64,000 nt of DNA, taken from positions 62,001 through 126,000 of the IMG/VR virus record IMGVR_UViG_3300023174_003623; one strand, 5' to 3'. The stretch comes from a virus. The position numbers and the translations under genes are program-made. A model generated the notes under the pieces. That model searched no databases. It was not told the origin of the DNA and was given only the letters and a program-made list of their open reading frames with translations. Position 1 is the first letter of the stretch; each line of letters starts with the position of its first letter. Below are positions 23,173 through 62,341 of this stretch, one piece after another.

Positions 23173-23180
23173 CATAAATA
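23173..23180 (+). promoter_or_regulatory. Late-promoter-like octamer CATAAATA
   Basis: One mismatch from TATAAATA, 35 bases before the neck gene gp13 and just after the last fibre gene. A second near match (TATAAATG) overlaps the gp13 start codon at 23208. Confidence 0.45.
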
Positions 23181-23207: not shown

Positions 23208-23948
23208 ATGGCTGCACCTACTACACGAGATCAATTTAAAGCCTATTGTCTTAGACGATTAGGTGCTCCAGTCATTGAAATTAATGTAGACGACGATCAA
23301 GTAGAAGATCGTGTAGATGATGCTTTGCGTTATTATTGGGACTATCATTTTGATGGTACTGATAAAGTTTATTATAAACACTTAGTTACTGAAACTGATA
23401 GAACTAATAAGTATATTACTATACCTGAAAATATTATTGGTGCAATTAATGTTTTTCCAATTGCAGATCCATCAATTCGTTCAGATGATCTTTTCAATAT
23501 TCGATATCAAATTGCTTTAAATGATTTGTATACACTTACCTCTGTATCAATGGTTCCATATTATATGGTCATGGAGCATCTTTCTTTAATTGCAGAGATG
23601 TTAGTCGGAAAACAACTTATCCGTTATAATCGTCATAAGAATCGTCTTTATGTCGATATGGATTGGAATTCTATCTCAAATGAATATCTTCTTATTGAAG
23701 CATATGAAGTTGTAGATCCCACAACTTATGTGGATGTTTGGAAAGATCAATGGCTAATGAGATATGCTACTGCTTTAATTAAACGCCAATGGGGTTCTAA
23801 TTTAACTAAGTTTGTAGGAATGCAACTTCCCGGTGGTCTAACATTTAACGGTGAAAAAATTTATAACGATGCTGTAGCCGAAATACAAGATTTAGAAGAT
23901 AAGATGATTTCGAGTTATTCATTGCCGGTTATGGATATGGTAGGCTAG
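23208..23948 (+). CDS. gp13: gp13-like neck/head completion protein
   Basis: A 246-residue protein. The N-terminal block (FKAYCLRRLGAPVIEINVDDDQVEDRVDDALRYYWDYH, residues about 9-46) is highly characteristic of the T4-superfamily gp13 neck protein, which with gp14 closes the filled head and forms the connector to the tail. It is shorter than T4 gp13 (about 309 residues) but typical of exo-T4 phages. It is the first gene of the conserved 13-14-15-16-17 cluster. The gp14 gene that normally follows directly is displaced by an inserted homing endonuclease gene. Confidence 0.9.
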   Translation: MAAPTTRDQFKAYCLRRLGAPVIEINVDDDQVEDRVDDALRYYWDYHFDGTDKVYYKHLVTETDRTNKYITIPENIIGAINVFPIADPSIRSDDLFNIRYQIALNDLYTLTSVSMVPYYMVMEHLSLIAEMLVGKQLIRYNRHKNRLYVDMDWNSISNEYLLIEAYEVVDPTTYVDVWKDQWLMRYATALIKRQWGSNLTKFVGMQLPGGLTFNGEKIYNDAVAEIQDLEDKMISSYSLPVMDMVG

Positions 23949-23959
23949 TTACCCCATTT

Positions 23960-23967
23960 TATAAATA
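23960..23967 (+). promoter_or_regulatory. Late promoter TATAAATA of GIY-YIG gene, inside hairpin arm
   Basis: An exact late octamer 24 bases before the endonuclease start codon. It lies wholly within the 5' arm of the hairpin at 23960-23992. T4 late transcripts begin about six bases after the octamer, which would be in the hairpin loop. Confidence 0.7.
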
Positions 23968-23992
23968 CTCTAAAACAATAGGAGTATTTGTA
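23960..23992 (+). promoter_or_regulatory. RBS-sequestering hairpin before GIY-YIG gene
   Basis: The 5' arm 23960-23970 (TATAAATACTC) pairs with 23982-23992 (GAGTATTTGTA) over 11 base pairs with one T-G wobble; the loop is 11 bases. The 3' arm holds GGAG of the ribosome site and runs to the start codon. Read-through transcripts from upstream would hide the start region, while transcripts from the embedded late promoter would lack the 5' arm. Confidence 0.75.
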
Positions 23993-24666
23993 TGGAAAAA
24001 TATGGATTTGTATATATTTGGAGAGATCGTAAACATAATAGATATTATATAGGATCTCATTGGGGAACTGAATGCGATGGATATGTTTGTAGTTCTAAAT
24101 GGATGAATAAATCTTATAATAGAAGACCCAAAGATTTTAAAAGAAAAATTTTAGTTAAAATATATTCGTCTAAAAATGAATTATTAGAACAAGAATATAG
24201 GTGGCTTTCATTAATATCAGATGAGGAATTAGGTAAAAAATATTACAATTTTACTAAACATAAAAATGGACATTGGACAGCAGAAGATTATGAAAAAGAT
24301 ATAAGAAGAAGGATATCTCTTAAAACCAAAGAAGCAATGCAAAGACCAGAAGTTCGGCAGAAATATGAAGAAGGTTTAAAGACGAGAGATTGTCGTTCTT
24401 CAGATCTAGAAGTACGGGCAAAAAGAAGCTCATCTATGAAAGGTAAGAATAGAGGAGTTTTAAATAAATTGGAATCGTTATCAAAAGCATGGGAAACTAA
24501 TCGCGGAAAATCTTTATCACAAGATCACAAAGATAAAATCAAATCTGCTGGAATGTTTACGCAACTAAATAATAAACGTGTTACATGTACAGTATGTGGG
24601 TTTGAAGGTAATCCGGGTAATATTGGAAGATACCACAATAACAAATGTAAGAAAAGTATAAAATAA
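23992..24666 (+). CDS. GIY-YIG homing endonuclease (Seg-like)
   Basis: A 224-residue free-standing endonuclease. The GIY-YIG core is at residues 4-21 (YGFVYIW then YYIGSHWG), followed by a basic middle region with a KTKEAM and KGKNRGV DNA-binding stretch. A C-terminal zinc finger (CTVCGFEGNPGNIGRYHNNKC) is typical of phage GIY-YIG enzymes. It sits exactly between gp13 and gp14, which are otherwise adjacent, so it is a mobile insertion that probably cuts the corresponding junction in related phages. Its stop codon abuts the gp14 start (TAAATG). Expression appears to be set by its own late promoter and hairpin. Confidence 0.9.
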   Translation: MEKYGFVYIWRDRKHNRYYIGSHWGTECDGYVCSSKWMNKSYNRRPKDFKRKILVKIYSSKNELLEQEYRWLSLISDEELGKKYYNFTKHKNGHWTAEDYEKDIRRRISLKTKEAMQRPEVRQKYEEGLKTRDCRSSDLEVRAKRSSSMKGKNRGVLNKLESLSKAWETNRGKSLSQDHKDKIKSAGMFTQLNNKRVTCTVCGFEGNPGNIGRYHNNKCKKSIK

Positions 24667-25398
24667 ATGTGCCCTACCAGCGTTTTCTTCAATAACTTCG
24701 CAAGTTCTATGGAACAGAACTTGATTGAAAATTTGATTATCGAGTCAATTCGTATACATGGTCACGACATTTATTATATCCCAAGAGTATTGAAAAATAA
24801 AGATGAAATTTATGGAGAAGATAGTATCTCGGAATATAATGCCTCATATTTTGTTGAAGTTTATATTAAAGATATATCTGGATTTCAAGGTGAAGGCGAT
24901 TTTTTATCTAAATTTAATCTTCAAATTAGAGACCAAATAACATTTACTATAGCTCGTAGAACATTCTTTGATGAAATCTCCAGTTCTGATGAAATTGCCA
25001 GACCCCGTGAAGGAGATCTCATTTATCTCCCATTAAATAAAAAAATATTTGTAATTAAATTTGTTGAGCATGAATCAATTTTTTATCAATTAGGCGCACT
25101 ACAAACATTTGACATGATCTGTGAACTTTGGGAATACTCTAACGAAATTCTTAATACGGGTATTACAGAAATTGATTCTAAACAAAAACTATATTCTTTT
25201 GATTTTTCAAATTACAATCTATTAACTCAAGATTTATTTGCGATTCAAGATGAAGATGGTTATGATATTATTCAAGAGCAATTTGATTTTGTGACTCAAG
25301 TGGGTGATGCTTTTGAGGATAATACAGAACTTGAATTAGAAGCAGATGAGGTAATCGATTTTACAGCAATAGACCCCTTTAGTGAAGGTAATTATTAA
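24667..25398 (+). CDS. gp14: gp14-like neck protein
   Basis: A 243-residue protein. Residues about 5-40 (FFNNFASSMEQNLIENLIIESIRIHGHDIYYIPR) and the EVYIKDISGFQGEGDFLSKFNLQIRDQ segment identify the T4-superfamily gp14 neck protein (T4 about 256 residues), partner of gp13 in completing the head after packaging. The start codon follows the endonuclease stop immediately, and only a poor ribosome site (AAGAAAAG) lies upstream. Its translation may therefore depend on ribosomes ending the endonuclease. An internal Met at 24709 is a less likely start because it would cut into the conserved N terminus. Confidence 0.9.
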   Translation: MCPTSVFFNNFASSMEQNLIENLIIESIRIHGHDIYYIPRVLKNKDEIYGEDSISEYNASYFVEVYIKDISGFQGEGDFLSKFNLQIRDQITFTIARRTFFDEISSSDEIARPREGDLIYLPLNKKIFVIKFVEHESIFYQLGALQTFDMICELWEYSNEILNTGITEIDSKQKLYSFDFSNYNLLTQDLFAIQDEDGYDIIQEQFDFVTQVGDAFEDNTELELEADEVIDFTAIDPFSEGNY

Positions 25399-40045: not shown

Positions 40046-40476
40046 GTACATATACAATAATTAAATTAAACACAGGTCAAGATATTATTTGTTCACTTAC
40101 TAAGGAACACTTATCTTCTTCTTTCATGTTAGAAGTAGAGAATCCTATGTTAATTCATCATAGCGTGAATGCTGATGGTTCAATAATAATTCTTCTTAAA
40201 AGATTTAACCCATTAGCTTTATCTACTAAGATGACAATAGAGCGGGCGCATATTATTGCAACGTATGCGCCACAAAAACAATTTGCAAATTATTATTGTG
40301 CAATTCTAGCTTTTCATGAAAAAGTTTTGGATGAAATGGCAATAAGAGATATTGATATAGCCACATCATTTATTGATGCAGCAATTATGAATGAAAAATT
40401 TGAAGAGACCTTTAAAGATATAAAGGAAAAGAAGAATGCACATGTAACAAAAAAGACTGATAAAAAGGTACATTAA
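40042..40476 (+). CDS. Sm-like (LSm-fold) conserved phage protein
   Basis: A 144-residue protein whose first 50 residues (YTIIKLNTGQDIICSL, FMLEVENPMLIHHS) show the bent-strand pattern of an Sm/Hfq-like barrel. The C terminus is helical and lysine-rich (KDIKEKKNAHVTKKTDKK). Homologous small genes occupy this slot between uvsW and the late sigma gene 55 in T4-like marine phages. An RNA-binding role is plausible but inferred. It overlaps uvsW by 4 bases and abuts gp55. Confidence 0.6.
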   Translation: MSTYTIIKLNTGQDIICSLTKEHLSSSFMLEVENPMLIHHSVNADGSIIILLKRFNPLALSTKMTIERAHIIATYAPQKQFANYYCAILAFHEKVLDEMAIRDIDIATSFIDAAIMNEKFEETFKDIKEKKNAHVTKKTDKKVH

Positions 40477-41060
40477 TGAATATTGAAACCTCACATTATG
40501 TAAATAATAAAAAGTTACTAGAAGAACTTATTATACATCATAATCTAGTAAAAGAATCGAAAGTTAATGGTGCGAAAAAACCTCGCATTTCTAATTATGT
40601 AGGTGAGTGTATTATGTTGATTGCCAAAAAATTGTGCAATCGACCAAATTTCATGAACTATCCTTTTAAAGAAGAAATGATTGGTGATGGTATTGAAAAT
40701 TGCTTGATGTATATTGATAATTTTGATCCGGCAAAATCTAGTAATCCTTTTGCTTATATTACACAAATTATTTACTTTGCATTTGTTCGTCGTATAACAA
40801 AAGAAAAGCGTCATTTATATACAAAACATAAATTAATACAAAATTATGTAATTCATGGTGGTAACTATGATCAAAATGAATGGGATGAAATAGTTCAACA
40901 AACTTATGTTGAGAATGAGAATGCGGGCGATTTTATCAAAGCATTTGAAGAAGGTTTAGTCCGTAAGAAAAAAGAAAAAAAGAAAATAGGAATTGAAAAA
41001 TTTATTGAAGAAGATATTGAAGAATTAGAATCTGAAATTGTAGTGAAGGATGGATTATGA
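40476..41060 (+). CDS. gp55: gp55-like late sigma factor
   Basis: A 194-residue protein (T4 gp55 185). It carries a minimal sigma-2 region: ECIMLIAKKLCNRPNFMNYPFKEEMIGDGIENCLMYIDNFDPAKSSNPFAYITQIIYFAFVRRI, which contains core-binding and -10 recognition helices. With the sliding clamp (gene at 46411) and gp33 it directs RNA polymerase to TATAAATA late promoters, which are abundant in this window. The C-terminal basic/acidic tail is variable. It overlaps gp47 by 4 bases. Confidence 0.92.
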   Translation: MNIETSHYVNNKKLLEELIIHHNLVKESKVNGAKKPRISNYVGECIMLIAKKLCNRPNFMNYPFKEEMIGDGIENCLMYIDNFDPAKSSNPFAYITQIIYFAFVRRITKEKRHLYTKHKLIQNYVIHGGNYDQNEWDEIVQQTYVENENAGDFIKAFEEGLVRKKKEKKKIGIEKFIEEDIEELESEIVVKDGL

Positions 41061-53796: not shown

Positions 53797-54414
53797 TTAA
53801 ACTCCTAGGAGTTTAGCATATTCATAAGTGTGATTTTTGCGATCTTCTAACCCAATAGTGCCACCATTGATTTTTTTTGTCAATTCTGTAATTGCTATAA
53901 GATTGATGCCTTTATCGCAAATATCCCAAAGATTATTCTTATCAAAAAAGAACATAGCGGATTCAAAAGCAAGTTCACCAGAAACAATGTCTGGGTTTGA
54001 AAGTATATCTGGGCGTCCAAAAGCTTTAGCAAAAGCAGCATAATTTTCACGACCAGTTAATTGAATAGCACCGCGCCCTCTGTATTTCCAACCATCACCA
54101 GAAGATTCATCACTATTTCCCATACGATTACTGTATACTTTATTAGCAATCTTTTCTGGATTTCTGGCATAAGGAGTAGCAGCAGAAATATCAGGGAAAT
54201 ACTTATGAAAGATCTTGACAAGTCCGTCTGCACTATAGTTTAGATTTTCTGATAGAGTTTTGAAGTTGCCACTTTCATGAGCAGTTTGAGCAAAGAAATG
54301 AGCAGCACGAATTTTAGACATTTTATAATAATTTACTGCTGCTTTAAGAGTGTTTGCTCCCCATTCACCATCAGGAGTTACGCCAATTTTTGTTTGAAAA
54401 TGTTTTAAACTCAT
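53797..54414 (-). CDS. GH19 endolysin (chitinase-like lysozyme)
   Basis: A 205-residue endolysin and the only minus-strand gene in the window. A short N-terminal peptidoglycan-binding-like segment (MSLKHFQTKIGVTPDGEWGANTLKAAVNYY, residues 1-30) is followed by the glycoside hydrolase family 19 domain. Catalytic Glu candidates are E47 (AHESGNF) and E56, and the substrate-binding motifs are WKYRGRGAIQLTGRENYAAF and NPDIVSGELAFESAMFFFDK. It cuts the glycan backbone of peptidoglycan at lysis. It is convergent with hsp20 and divergent from gp43. No signal peptide is evident, so a holin or equivalent should be encoded elsewhere. Confidence 0.92.
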   Translation of the reverse strand: MSLKHFQTKIGVTPDGEWGANTLKAAVNYYKMSKIRAAHFFAQTAHESGNFKTLSENLNYSADGLVKIFHKYFPDISAATPYARNPEKIANKVYSNRMGNSDESSGDGWKYRGRGAIQLTGRENYAAFAKAFGRPDILSNPDIVSGELAFESAMFFFDKNNLWDICDKGINLIAITELTKKINGGTIGLEDRKNHTYEYAKLLGV

Positions 54415-57059: not shown

Positions 57060-57980
57060 ATGTCATTTTTCAAAAATCTTGTAGAAAGTATAAAAGATGA
57101 AGACACTAATATCGTTGCTGATGGTCAAGGTTCTTCAGAATTTAGTGGATTTATTGATACTGGGTCTTATATTCTCAATGCAGTTGTTAGTGGTAGTATT
57201 TTTGGTGGTGTCCCAAATAATAAGATTACTGCTTTTGCTGGTGAATCTGCTACCGGAAAAACTTTCTTTGTGCTTGGGATTGTCAAAGCCTTCTTAGATG
57301 CAAATCCTACCGCTGGTGTTATGTATTATGATACTGAGGCTGCTGTTACCAAACAGATGATGGAGTCTCGCGGAATTGATACTAAGCGAGTAATTGTTGC
57401 TGAACCAGATACTATTCAGAAGTTTAGAACTCATGCCCTTAAGACGCTTGACTATTATGAAAAGGGTGGTGCAGACCGTCCTCCGTTTATGATGGTGCTT
57501 GATTCATTGGGTCTTCTATCTACCACAAAAGAAATGGAAGATACTGCTGAAGGTAAAGAGACTCGTGACATGACTAAATCCCAAACTATTAAGGCTGCAT
57601 TTCGAGTGTTGACTTTGAAGTTAGCAAAGGTCAAGGTTCCGCTTATTGTAACCAATCACGTTTATGATATCGTTGGCGCATATGTTCCCACCAAAGAAAT
57701 TTCTGGTGGATGTTTGGTTGCAGGCACTAACGTCTTAACGCGCAGAGGGTTTGTTAGCATAGAAAATATTAGTACTAACGATTTAGTGATGACTAAAGAA
57801 GGTGAATTTAAAAACGTATTAGAATGTCACACTTTTGATGATAAAGAACTATTGCAAATCCATTTAGAAGATGGGTCAAGTGTAACGTGTACACCAGAGC
57901 ACAAATTTTTTATTAACAATCAATGGGTTGAAGCAAAAAACATTATTATAGGTGATGATCTGCAAACATTACAAAAATAG
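57060..57980 (+). CDS. uvsX: UvsX N-terminal half fused to N-intein (split intein)
   Basis: A 306-residue protein. Residues 1-217 are the N-terminal part of the RecA-like recombinase UvsX, with Walker A GESATGKT (61-68) and Walker B MMVLDSL. At residue 218 (codon 57711) the sequence switches to an intein: [20 protein letters not shown] (block A, Cys1), then TCTPEHKF (block B). The open frame stops after LQTLQK at 57980. The 89-residue N-intein ends where split inteins are commonly broken. The extein break is EISGG/SGLKY, next to the DNA-binding loop. The C-terminal partner is at 58708. A functional UvsX of about 354 residues needs trans-splicing. Confidence 0.9.
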
Positions 57981-58002
57981 GTAGTGGTTTAAAGTATAAA
58001 TT

Positions 58003-58010
58003 AATAAATA
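58003..58010 (+). promoter_or_regulatory. Late-promoter-like octamer AATAAATA before intein-locus HNH
   Basis: One mismatch from consensus and largely within the 5' arm of the hairpin at 58005-58045. A second near match (TATAAATT) lies at 57995-58002. Confidence 0.5.
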
Positions 58011-58045
58011 CATGTATGACGTTTAGGAGGTCTTGCATGTATTTA
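58005..58045 (+). promoter_or_regulatory. Start-codon-sequestering hairpin before HNH gene
   Basis: TAAATACATG (58005-58014) pairs perfectly with CATGTATTTA (58036-58045), 10 base pairs. The loop (58015-58035) holds the ribosome site TAGGAGG and the 3' arm holds the start codon at 58037. A transcript starting from the adjacent late octamer, about six bases downstream, would begin at the edge of the loop and could not form it. Confidence 0.7.
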
Positions 58046-58711
58046 AATAACAAATATACAAATTGGTATATGAAATTGATGAATTCTAGAAAACAATTAC
58101 CTAGAAAAAGAAAAGACGGTAATTGTTATGAATCTCATCATATTTTACCTAAAAGTTTAGGCGGCAGTAATCATAAATCTAATTTAGTATTATTAACTCC
58201 AAGAGAACATTTTATAGCCCATTGTTTATTAATAAGAATGACCTATGGCGCACAAAAACGAAGTATGACATATGCATTGGTGCGGTTTTTAGGTAAAAAT
58301 ATCGATAATCAACGGTATAAAATAACTTCTAGAATATATGAAAATATCATAAAAAATAATCGAATTTTTACTTTAGGTAAAAATAATCCCATGTATGGCA
58401 AACCTTGTTGGCATACAATGACAGAAGAAGAAAAAAGTGAATGGAAAACTAATATTAGTAAAGGGATGATGGGAGAAAAAAATCCATTTTATGGTAAAAC
58501 ACACAATCAAGAAACTCGAAATATTATATCACAAATCCGTTCTCAACCAATTTTAGTTAAATTCAATAATGGTTCAGAAATAACATTTACTCAATATAAA
58601 TTTTTAGGTACTTACATTGGTAAATCTGAAGCATTAGGACAGAAATTATGCAAACCTCAACACAATAATTTATTGGCAAAATATGGAATAAAGGAAATTA
58701 TAAAATTATGA
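58037..58711 (+). CDS. HNH homing endonuclease inside split-intein locus
   Basis: A 224-residue endonuclease encoded between the two uvsX halves. Start 58037 is chosen for the TAGGAGG site 6 bases ahead; the upstream ATG at 58016 has none. The HNH core is [31 protein letters not shown] (H34, H35 and H58 with the central Asn). Two NUMOD3-like DNA-binding repeats follow ([14 protein letters not shown] and [13 protein letters not shown]). Its stop overlaps the start of the C-intein gene (ATGA), so the latter may be translationally coupled. It is the likely mobility factor of the split-intein insertion. Confidence 0.9.
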
Positions 58712-59226
58712 AAGTAGTTAATATTAAATCTGTAGGAACAGGAAAAGTATATGACATTACAGTTGATGAGCATGAAAATTATATTCTTGAAAATGGATTG
58801 ATAACTCACAATTCAGGGCTTAAATATGCTGCGTCTACTATCGCCATGCTTTCTAAGAAGAAAGATAAAGATGGTAACAACGATGTGGTTGGTAACATCA
58901 TCAAAGTCAAGATGCACAAATCTAGGTTATCGAAAGAGAATGGTCAGGTTGAAGTTCGCTTATCATATGATAAAGGTCTTGATAAGTATTATGGTTTGCT
59001 TGATTTAGCTGAAAAGTATGGTATAATCAAGAAGGTCACTACTCGATACGAGATGCCTAACGGAACTAGGCTTTTTGGAAAGGAAATTCTATCCAATCCA
59101 GAAAAGTATTTCGATGATGAAATGCTTCTTCGTCTAGAAGAGTGTGCCAAAAAAGAATTTAGTTATGGTGGTCAAGGAGAAATTGATGACAATCGAGAAG
59201 ACGATTCTATCGAATCTGGTGTTTAA
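58708..59226 (+). CDS. uvsX: C-intein fused to UvsX C-terminal half (split intein)
   Basis: A 172-residue protein. Residues 1-35 are a C-intein with blocks F and G ([17 protein letters not shown], then LITHN with terminal His-Asn). Ser36 is the +1 extein residue (codon 58813). The remaining 137 residues continue Uvs[48 protein letters not shown]. The Ser+1 and Cys1 nucleophiles fit class 1 splicing. No strong ribosome site lies at normal spacing (AAGGA at about 58691), consistent with coupling to the HNH gene. Confidence 0.9.
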
Positions 59227-61595: not shown

Positions 61596-61668
<73 letters not shown>

Positions 61669-61674
61669 CCTTGA

Positions 61675-61695: not shown

Positions 61696-61742
61696 CTTAT
61701 AAATAAGTGTAGGAGGCTTTTATGCACTACACAATTTATAAG
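61696..61742 (+). promoter_or_regulatory. Start-region-enclosing hairpin of second GIY-YIG gene
   Basis: CTTATAAAT (61696-61704) pairs with ATTTATAAG (61734-61742), 9 base pairs. After an AA/A internal loop, GTGTAG (61707-61712) pairs with CTACAC (61727-61732), 6 base pairs. The terminal loop (61713-61726) holds most of the AGGAGG ribosome site and the ATG at 61722. Late initiation would begin at about 61710, removing the 5' arm. Confidence 0.75.
61698..61705 (+). promoter_or_regulatory. Late promoter TATAAATA of second GIY-YIG gene, inside hairpin arm
   Basis: An exact late octamer 16 bases before the endonuclease start. It overlaps the 5' arm of the hairpin at 61696-61742. Confidence 0.7.
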
Positions 61743-62282
61743 ATTACAAATAAGATTAACGGCAAGGTCTACATAGGATCACATAAGACCAAAAATCTTG
61801 ATGACGGGTACATGGGTTCAGGAAAGTATCTTAAACGAGCCATAGAAAAAAATGGAATAGAGAATTTTGAGAAAGAAATTCTTTTCGTTTATGATAACCC
61901 TGAAACCATGTATCAAAAAGAAGGCGAACTTGTTAACGAAGATTTTCTCGCTACAGAAAACACTTACAACTTAAAAGTTGGTGGTTATGGCGGATTTGAT
62001 TATATTAACAGCAATAAATTAAACGTCTACGAAAATGCCGGTAAAATCGGGTATGGTGGAGAAAATTTATTAAGAAGCCATACAGAAGAAACGAAAAAGA
62101 AAATAAGCGAGAAAAATAAAATCTCCCAAAAAGGAGAAAAAAATTCTCAATATGGAACTAAATGGGTTCATAATCCTTTGACTAAAAAATCAAAAAAGAT
62201 AAAGGGCGAACTTGAAGAAGGTTGGCTGTTAGGTAAATATAAATTACCTAAATCAAAAGTAATTTCTATCCGTGTGGTGTAA
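61722..62282 (+). CDS. GIY-YIG homing endonuclease between tRNA genes
   Basis: A 186-residue endonuclease. The GIY-YIG core is YTIYKIT (3-9) and KVYIGSHK (15-22), with catalytic-type residues in DGYMGSGKYLKRAIEKNGIENFEKEIL. A C-terminal NUMOD3-like DNA-binding segment (GEKNSQYGTKWVHNP) follows. It lies between tRNA-Asn and tRNA-Trp. Its last codons (CGT GTG GTG TAA) are the first 15 bases of the tRNA-Trp gene, so the enzyme and tRNA share sequence. Seg-type enzymes next to phage tRNA genes are known in T4. Confidence 0.9.
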   Translation: MHYTIYKITNKINGKVYIGSHKTKNLDDGYMGSGKYLKRAIEKNGIENFEKEILFVYDNPETMYQKEGELVNEDFLATENTYNLKVGGYGGFDYINSNKLNVYENAGKIGYGGENLLRSHTEETKKKISEKNKISQKGEKNSQYGTKWVHNPLTKKSKKIKGELEEGWLLGKYKLPKSKVISIRVV

Positions 62283-62341
62283 CGGCAGCACAACTGTCTC
62301 CAAAATAGTTAGTTGAGGTTCAAATCCTTACACGGATGCCA
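62268..62341 (+). tRNA. trnW: tRNA-Trp (CCA)
   Basis: Cloverleaf: acceptor ATCCGTG/CACGGAT, D arm GTGT/GCAC, anticodon stem ACTGT/ATAGT with loop CTCCAAA giving anticodon CCA, and T arm TGAGG/CCTTA around TTCAAAT. The discriminator is G (as in tRNA-Trp) and a CCA end is encoded (62339-62341). Its 5' 15 bases overlap the 3' end of the endonuclease gene. A membrane protein gene starts 4 bases after it. Confidence 0.9.

Follow-up and report, generated by a model that had tools for sequence, protein, structure and literature searches.

A late promoter box within a ribosome-site-masking hairpin as a candidate translational switch of a mobile endonuclease gene in the late operon of a T4-like phage

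The locus described herein raises the question of why a homing endonuclease gene (HEG) located in a late operon should carry a hairpin over its own ribosome-binding site. The benefit of such a mask is not obvious, because the documented cases in T4 and Aeh1 sit on transcripts of early and middle genes (PMC2988022), whereas the present gene, designated HEG1, stands behind a late gene. The mechanism itself, a hairpin at the ribosome-binding site combined with a late promoter, is already known from these two phages, where it is established in the case of T4 I-TevI and has been either demonstrated or implicated in those of Aeh1 mobE and T4 segB (PMC2988022, PMC3014915). Three aspects are new in the present study: the scale on which the arrangement occurs, the repeated shifts between masking of the Shine-Dalgarno sequence (SD) and masking of the AUG, and its place in a late operon downstream of a gene that itself has a late box. 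Based on sequence analysis and folding models, we consider it highly probable that the leader of HEG1, 43 nt in length, acts as a translational switch coupled to a promoter and arrived together with the endonuclease gene. In such a switch, read-through RNA from gp13 or from farther upstream would fold the late-promoter sequence onto the ribosome site, and this masked RNA would be translated poorly into endonuclease. RNA from the embedded late promoter would lack the 5' arm of the hairpin and expose an open ribosome site, and the output of endonuclease would then follow its own gp55-type late promoter rather than the surrounding operon.

The window, namely the whole 64,000-nucleotide stretch of DNA that was analysed, comprises bases 62001-126000 of a 154,777-base IMG/VR virus record. 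By gene content, including gp13, gp14, gp17, gp20 and a homologue of the late sigma factor gp55, the source is a T4-like phage, and its closest isolates share only approximately 50-64% identity in such proteins. HEG1 is an intact GIY-YIG homing endonuclease gene of 224 aa (23992-24666, + strand; PHROG homing endonuclease, 2e-16) inserted between two neck genes, with gp13 (head-tail adaptor Ad2; 23208-23948, + strand; PHROG, 1.7e-41) as the upstream flank and gp14 (24667-25398, + strand; Pfam T4 neck protein, 2e-33) downstream. The GIY-YIG domain was recognized by PF01541 with 23.1 bits, counting in-frame neighbours, against a cut-off of 22.6, and HEG1 searched alone against Pfam gave no match at E 0.001. 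The relation of HEG1 to SegB is distant (26% over 93 aa), and no solved structure near HEG1 in sequence was found. Both elements of a T4-type late promoter system are present in this genome, that is, a TATAAATA-type box and the gp55 homologue (40476-41060, + strand; 39% to T4 gp55, E 8e-23, G000:102494-102988). The box variant NATAAATA is accepted in cyanophages (PMC2984593).

The sequence of positions 23960-23992 is TATAAATACTCTAAAACAATAGGAGTATTTGTA, which is composed of the parts TATAAATACTCT AAAACAATA GGAGTATTTGTA. The late promoter box TATAAATA (23960-23967, + strand) occupies the outermost 8 bases of the hairpin's 5' arm (23960-23971, + strand, from the fold). The 3' arm (23981-23992, + strand), supported by the fold and by covariation, contains the GGAG (23981-23984) of the SD AGGAG (23980-23984, + strand), and its last base is the A of the ATG (23992). 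In the minimum-free-energy structure, a stem of 12 bp closes a loop at 23972-23980 (-11.1 kcal/mol, z = -3.2), and none of 200 shuffled sequences was equally stable. The first-pass annotation had described an 11-bp hairpin with the GGAG in its 3' arm; the position of the GGAG was correct, and the stem is 12 bp long rather than 11 bp. The folding of 23930-24010 that it had recommended gives a z of only -1.7. The predicted late transcription start (23973, + strand), placed 6 nt past the end of the box according to T4 late-promoter geometry, lies in the loop, and RNA starting there lacks the whole 5' arm. The cost of opening the SD-to-AUG stretch is 12.1-12.7 kcal/mol on long RNA, for transcripts extended upstream by up to 392 nt, and 3.3 kcal/mol on RNA from the predicted start, a drop resembling those of T4 I-TevI, I-TevII and segB. 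The exact TATAAATA box shows no over-representation across the whole window (16 copies vs 12.7 expected); therefore, weight is placed on the position and pairing of the box at HEG1. Sequence, fold and opening energies together bear out the original proposal of a late box within a hairpin masking the ribosome-binding site of this gene. The further statement of the first-pass annotation, that long transcripts yield no endonuclease and that the gene's late promoter is its sole source, has the standing of a prediction.

To compare leaders, a switch value was calculated as the free energy required to free the SD-to-AUG stretch on long RNA minus that on RNA starting 6 nt past the box; these energies are predictions from short leaders with assumed start sites. 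In T4, switches documented in the literature (PMC2988022, PMC3014915) were recovered, with 8.6 kcal/mol for I-TevI, 12.8 for I-TevII, 10.3 for segB, 11.7 for the lysozyme gene e and 10.4 for gp49, and the other T4 late genes tested reached at most 4.2 kcal/mol. The metric misses some switches, since soc, a documented case, scores only 2.2 kcal/mol. I-TevIII was unsuitable as a positive control, being annotated as defective in T4, and a value of 1.1 was obtained at its annotated start. A close counterpart of the HEG1 leader is that of segB, CATAAATACTCTTAGAAATAGGAGATATTTATG, in which the box and CTC pair with the SD in almost the same design, although segB lies in a tRNA cluster, HEG1 in a late structural operon, and the two proteins are only distantly related. 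As predicted for HEG1, the ribosome-binding sites of I-TevI and I-TevII are hidden on long RNA and exposed on the gene's own transcript (PMC2988022). Both of these genes, however, are encoded within introns and belong to early or middle transcripts; HEG1 is a free-standing gene of a late operon. Aeh1 mobE, compared here by its description, is likewise a free-standing HEG, of the HNH type, with a hairpin that sequesters the ribosome-binding site (PMC2988022, PMC3014915); unlike HEG1, it is located inside a ribonucleotide reductase gene.

The same calculation was applied to genes of the window and of IMG/VR loci whose start is preceded by an SD and, at a distance of 15-60 nt, by a late-type box. 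Dereplication by shared 8-mers, after which some relatedness remains, left 37 members of the HEG1 family, 19 of the HEG3 family, 4 of the HEG2 family and 91 other genes, the last group comprising assorted late genes, 31 of them gp13. The median switch was 6.9 kcal/mol in the HEG1 family, 5.9 in the HEG3 family, 4.9 in the HEG2 family and 0.6 among the others (Mann-Whitney against the others, p 1e-12 for the HEG1 family and 4e-6 for the HEG3 family), and the shares reaching at least 4 kcal/mol were 0.86, 0.63, 0.50 and 0.16, respectively. These family differences hold when the start is set 4-8 nt past the box. When the spacer was shuffled with box and SD fixed, p was at most 0.05 in 28 of 37 HEG1 leaders and in 12 of 91 others. 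Similarly, in five T4-like genomes, values of at least 6 kcal/mol were obtained for 10 of 13 late-box HEGs and for 9 of 58 other late-box genes (Fisher, 4e-5). Ordinary late genes may thus also score highly, as these 9 of 58 and the 16% of the 91 show, and the high scorers among the 91 include nucleases (HNH+NUMOD3 and PD-(D/E)XK) and an endolysin. Equal hairpins, which the first-pass annotation had regarded as damaging to its proposal if common at late genes of other kinds, are absent from most of these (16% of 91 vs 86% of 37).

The promoter and hairpin appear to belong to the inserted element. Nearly all of 80 HEG1 relatives adjoin gp13 or gp14, and a late box is present within 70 nt in 77 of 79 relatives vs 0 of 20 alleles without HEG1. 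Presence and absence of the gene are polymorphic at this site, with empty alleles whose gp13 is 87-94% identical and in which gp13 and gp14 are mostly 2-13 nt apart. Because alleles without the gene have no promoter, we infer that the hairpin-promoter module probably entered together with HEG1. At one locus (L099, 1367-1429), a HEG1-like gene is reduced to its terminal ~50 nt between gp13 and gp14, with promoter, hairpin and gene body gone, constituting a deletion scar. In cultured phages, relatives are found between gp25 and gp6 (phiM7), between gp19 and gp20 (RHph_I1_18) and after an nrdC.11-like gene (phiN3). These relatives from Sinorhizobium and Rhizobium phages have boxes and hairpins with unrelated stem sequences, whereas at the neighbouring gp25, gp19 and gp20 a box is present without a mask. 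Several relatives are annotated with TTG or GTG starts (L262 1501 in phiM7, L261 1477 in phiN3 and L260 1495 in phiM12), which is possibly another damper on expression. In L104, L111 and L114, a second, distant GIY-YIG gene without a masking hairpin occupies the gp13/gp14 site, and L114 retains a box-like TGTAAATACTCTTGTAAGG stretch upstream of it.

Two further HEGs are present in the same window, and the first-pass annotation had ascribed one geometry to all three. This was only partly right, since the pairing differs: the SD is paired in HEG1, the AUG in HEG2 and neither in HEG3. HEG2 (58037-58711, + strand) is an HNH + NUMOD3 gene identified by NUMOD3 (8e-10) and PHROG homing endonuclease (9e-33) matches, the HNH_3 profile giving none. 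Its late-type box AATAAATA (58003-58010, + strand) overlaps a hairpin with a 12-bp outer stem (58005-58045, + strand), whose 3' arm includes the AUG (58037) and whose apical part holds the SD. The fold over 57985-58060 has -18.4 kcal/mol (z -3.9), and opening requires 15.5-16.8 kcal/mol on long RNA vs 4.1 from the late start. HEG2 lies within uvsX, an early/middle gene in T4, which is broken here by a split intein at 57060-57980 and 58708-59226. The order is UvsX-N with the intein N-half (CLVAGT...TPEHKF), HEG2, and the intein C-half (...GLITHN, followed by S) with UvsX-C, which is the 'fractured gene' arrangement, in this case with an HNH/NUMOD3 endonuclease between the halves.

HEG3 (61722-62282, + strand) is a GIY-YIG gene homologous to T4 SegB (42% identity, E 2e-46; PHROG homing endonuclease, 4e-47). 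Its late box TATAAATA (61698-61705, + strand) and a GTGTAG pair with early codons of the gene in a structure spanning 61696-61742 (+ strand; -15.8 kcal/mol, z -4.8). Although opening costs 8.0 kcal/mol on long RNA vs 3.4 on late RNA, HEG3 is only weakly masked, the unpaired fraction of its SD-to-AUG stretch being 65% on long RNA compared with 50% on late RNA, and masking is doubtful because SD and AUG are left in the loop. Since YTIYK, the conserved beginning of the GIY-YIG domain, is encoded by the paired codons, part of this pairing may be a by-product of coding. HEG3, the true SegB relative, has a fold that differs from that of the segB leader and is weaker. The gene lies between tRNA-Asn (61596-61670) and tRNA-Trp (62268-62341), the latter overlapping its 3' end, in a context like that of T4 segB.

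For these two genes, by analogy with T4, the position inside uvsX or in a tRNA region fits a T4-style timer, in which the hairpin would prevent expression from early and middle read-through RNA and would play no part on late RNA. Such a role is documented for I-TevI, with similar arrangements described for segB and Aeh1 mobE, and as a sufficient account of the HEG1 hairpin it is possible, although we regard it as doubtful. The neighbours of HEG1 are neck genes, that is, late virion genes, and not early or middle genes as in the known cases, and HEG1 and its relatives in isolates are found in late structural operons (gp13/14, gp25/6, gp19/20). Moreover, gp13 has its own late box CATAAATA (23173-23180, + strand) that is not accompanied by a masking hairpin (switch value, -2.3 kcal/mol), and the stretch from gp13 to HEG1 contains no terminator-like site; the mask must therefore act among late transcripts, if at all, and a pure early-off/late-on timer does not explain it. 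Among the T4 HEGs in late regions, segC and segD have no late box near the start and segE scores only 2.5 kcal/mol. The early/late timing that the first-pass annotation had carried over from T4 thus does not transfer directly to this operon. A mask acting among late transcripts suggests that the endonuclease gene is insulated from the operon, that the cassette is made portable between sites, or both; insulation would shield the gene from abundant late read-through RNA.

We also propose, tentatively, that the hairpin in the late operon is an insulator rather than a timer and that the gp13/gp14 operon has additionally been rewired, gp14 being tied to the promoter and translation of HEG1. In empty alleles, gp14 follows directly after gp13 and mostly has no good SD (73% weaker than -4 kcal/mol), which suggests translational coupling to gp13. 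In the window, the ATG of gp14 abuts the HEG1 stop codon without an SD, and gp14 may therefore depend on translation of HEG1; this dependence is not general, because some occupied alleles carry an SD for gp14. If true, the dependence of an essential neck protein on HEG1 would make the element hard to lose.

When HEG1 leaders were given the 5' arms of other members, the opening cost fell from 9.5 to 6.3 kcal/mol (p 4e-6), whereas the same swap among other late-box genes produced no change (4.4 vs 4.2, p 0.21). Compensatory changes, which the first-pass annotation had suggested seeking in homologues, were found: in 24 SD-stem leaders, 14 cells were changed on both sides vs 5.6 in shuffles (0 of 500 shuffles), in an alignment of the two arms only, in register with a constant spacer between them, that omits three leaders with overlapping or out-of-register arms. 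When the partner arm was slid, at most 3 doubly changed cells were obtained in the same leaders. G-U pairs are common, with U-G at pair 10/22 in 16 of 24 leaders and at 9/23 in 8 of 24. The masked element varies among HEG1 relatives, being the SD in 16, the AUG in 8 and both in 11, and the AUG-masking type changed at least 4 times on well-supported branches of the protein tree. Because the stems differ and the architecture changed so often, the acquisition of one common leader sequence, one of two origins offered at first, is disfavoured. In L085, two HEG1-family genes (3989 and 5519) stand before and after gp14, one masking the SD and the other the AUG. At the level of sequence, these data imply that selection keeps the pairing, and not the sequence, of HEG1-family leaders, with SD, AUG or both masked by differing stems.

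These observations bear on the possibility that the hairpin is a relic, selected at an earlier genomic site and merely carried at gp13/gp14. It is true that the module is part of the inserted DNA and that alleles lacking the gene have no box, but the covariation, the repeated change of architecture and the arm-swap result were all obtained among relatives located nearly all at gp13/gp14, which argues for continuing selection there and renders a relic improbable. Alternatively, the inverted repeat could be a palindromic DNA operator to which the endonuclease, or some other protein, binds at the promoter of the gene. Repeat and promoter do overlap, and autorepression has been shown for T4 I-TevI, which binds an operator overlapping its late promoter (PMC2988022). 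In contrast, no operator resemblance was found in the HEG1 leader, whose similarity to the reconstructed gp13/gp14 homing site was not above that of shuffles (median p 0.6; p at most 0.05 in 1 of 30). The many G-U pairs would be mismatches in a DNA palindrome, and the stem sequence differs between relatives, so that an operator seems very unlikely. Finally, a chance pairing of GGAG with TATAAATA through the base composition of an AT-rich genome, for which the 16% of other late-box genes reaching 4 kcal/mol and the modest z of the wider stretch might speak, is made extremely improbable by the shuffle, swap, slide and control-gene tests.

Previously, the promoter-coupled switch had been described for only a few endonucleases, in T4 and Aeh1. 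Here, it would appear to be a general and actively maintained property of a large endonuclease family in uncultured and cultured T4-like phages, and the reason for the tight regulation of HEGs becomes testable in the late-operon cases and in culturable Sinorhizobium phages. The switch value may also provide a computable signature for genes that a phage must not express from read-through RNA, with endolysins among the hits. The T4 lysozyme gene e, which is harmful if made early, has the switch predicted for HEG1, but it is not mobile. In parallel with e, the GH19-type endolysin genes of two other phages have strong switches (L197 4635 and, in RHph_I1_18, L284 5160-5924; 7.5 and 9.9 kcal/mol). 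The GH19 endolysin of the window itself (53797-54414, - strand) has a late box ~70 nt upstream, and in its leader TAAATATT could pair with AATATTTA beside the SD. A PhoH-like gene in phiN3 (L291, 14026-14736) and phiM12 (L272, 13308-13565) likewise combines a box with a hairpin, with a switch of 8.9 kcal/mol.
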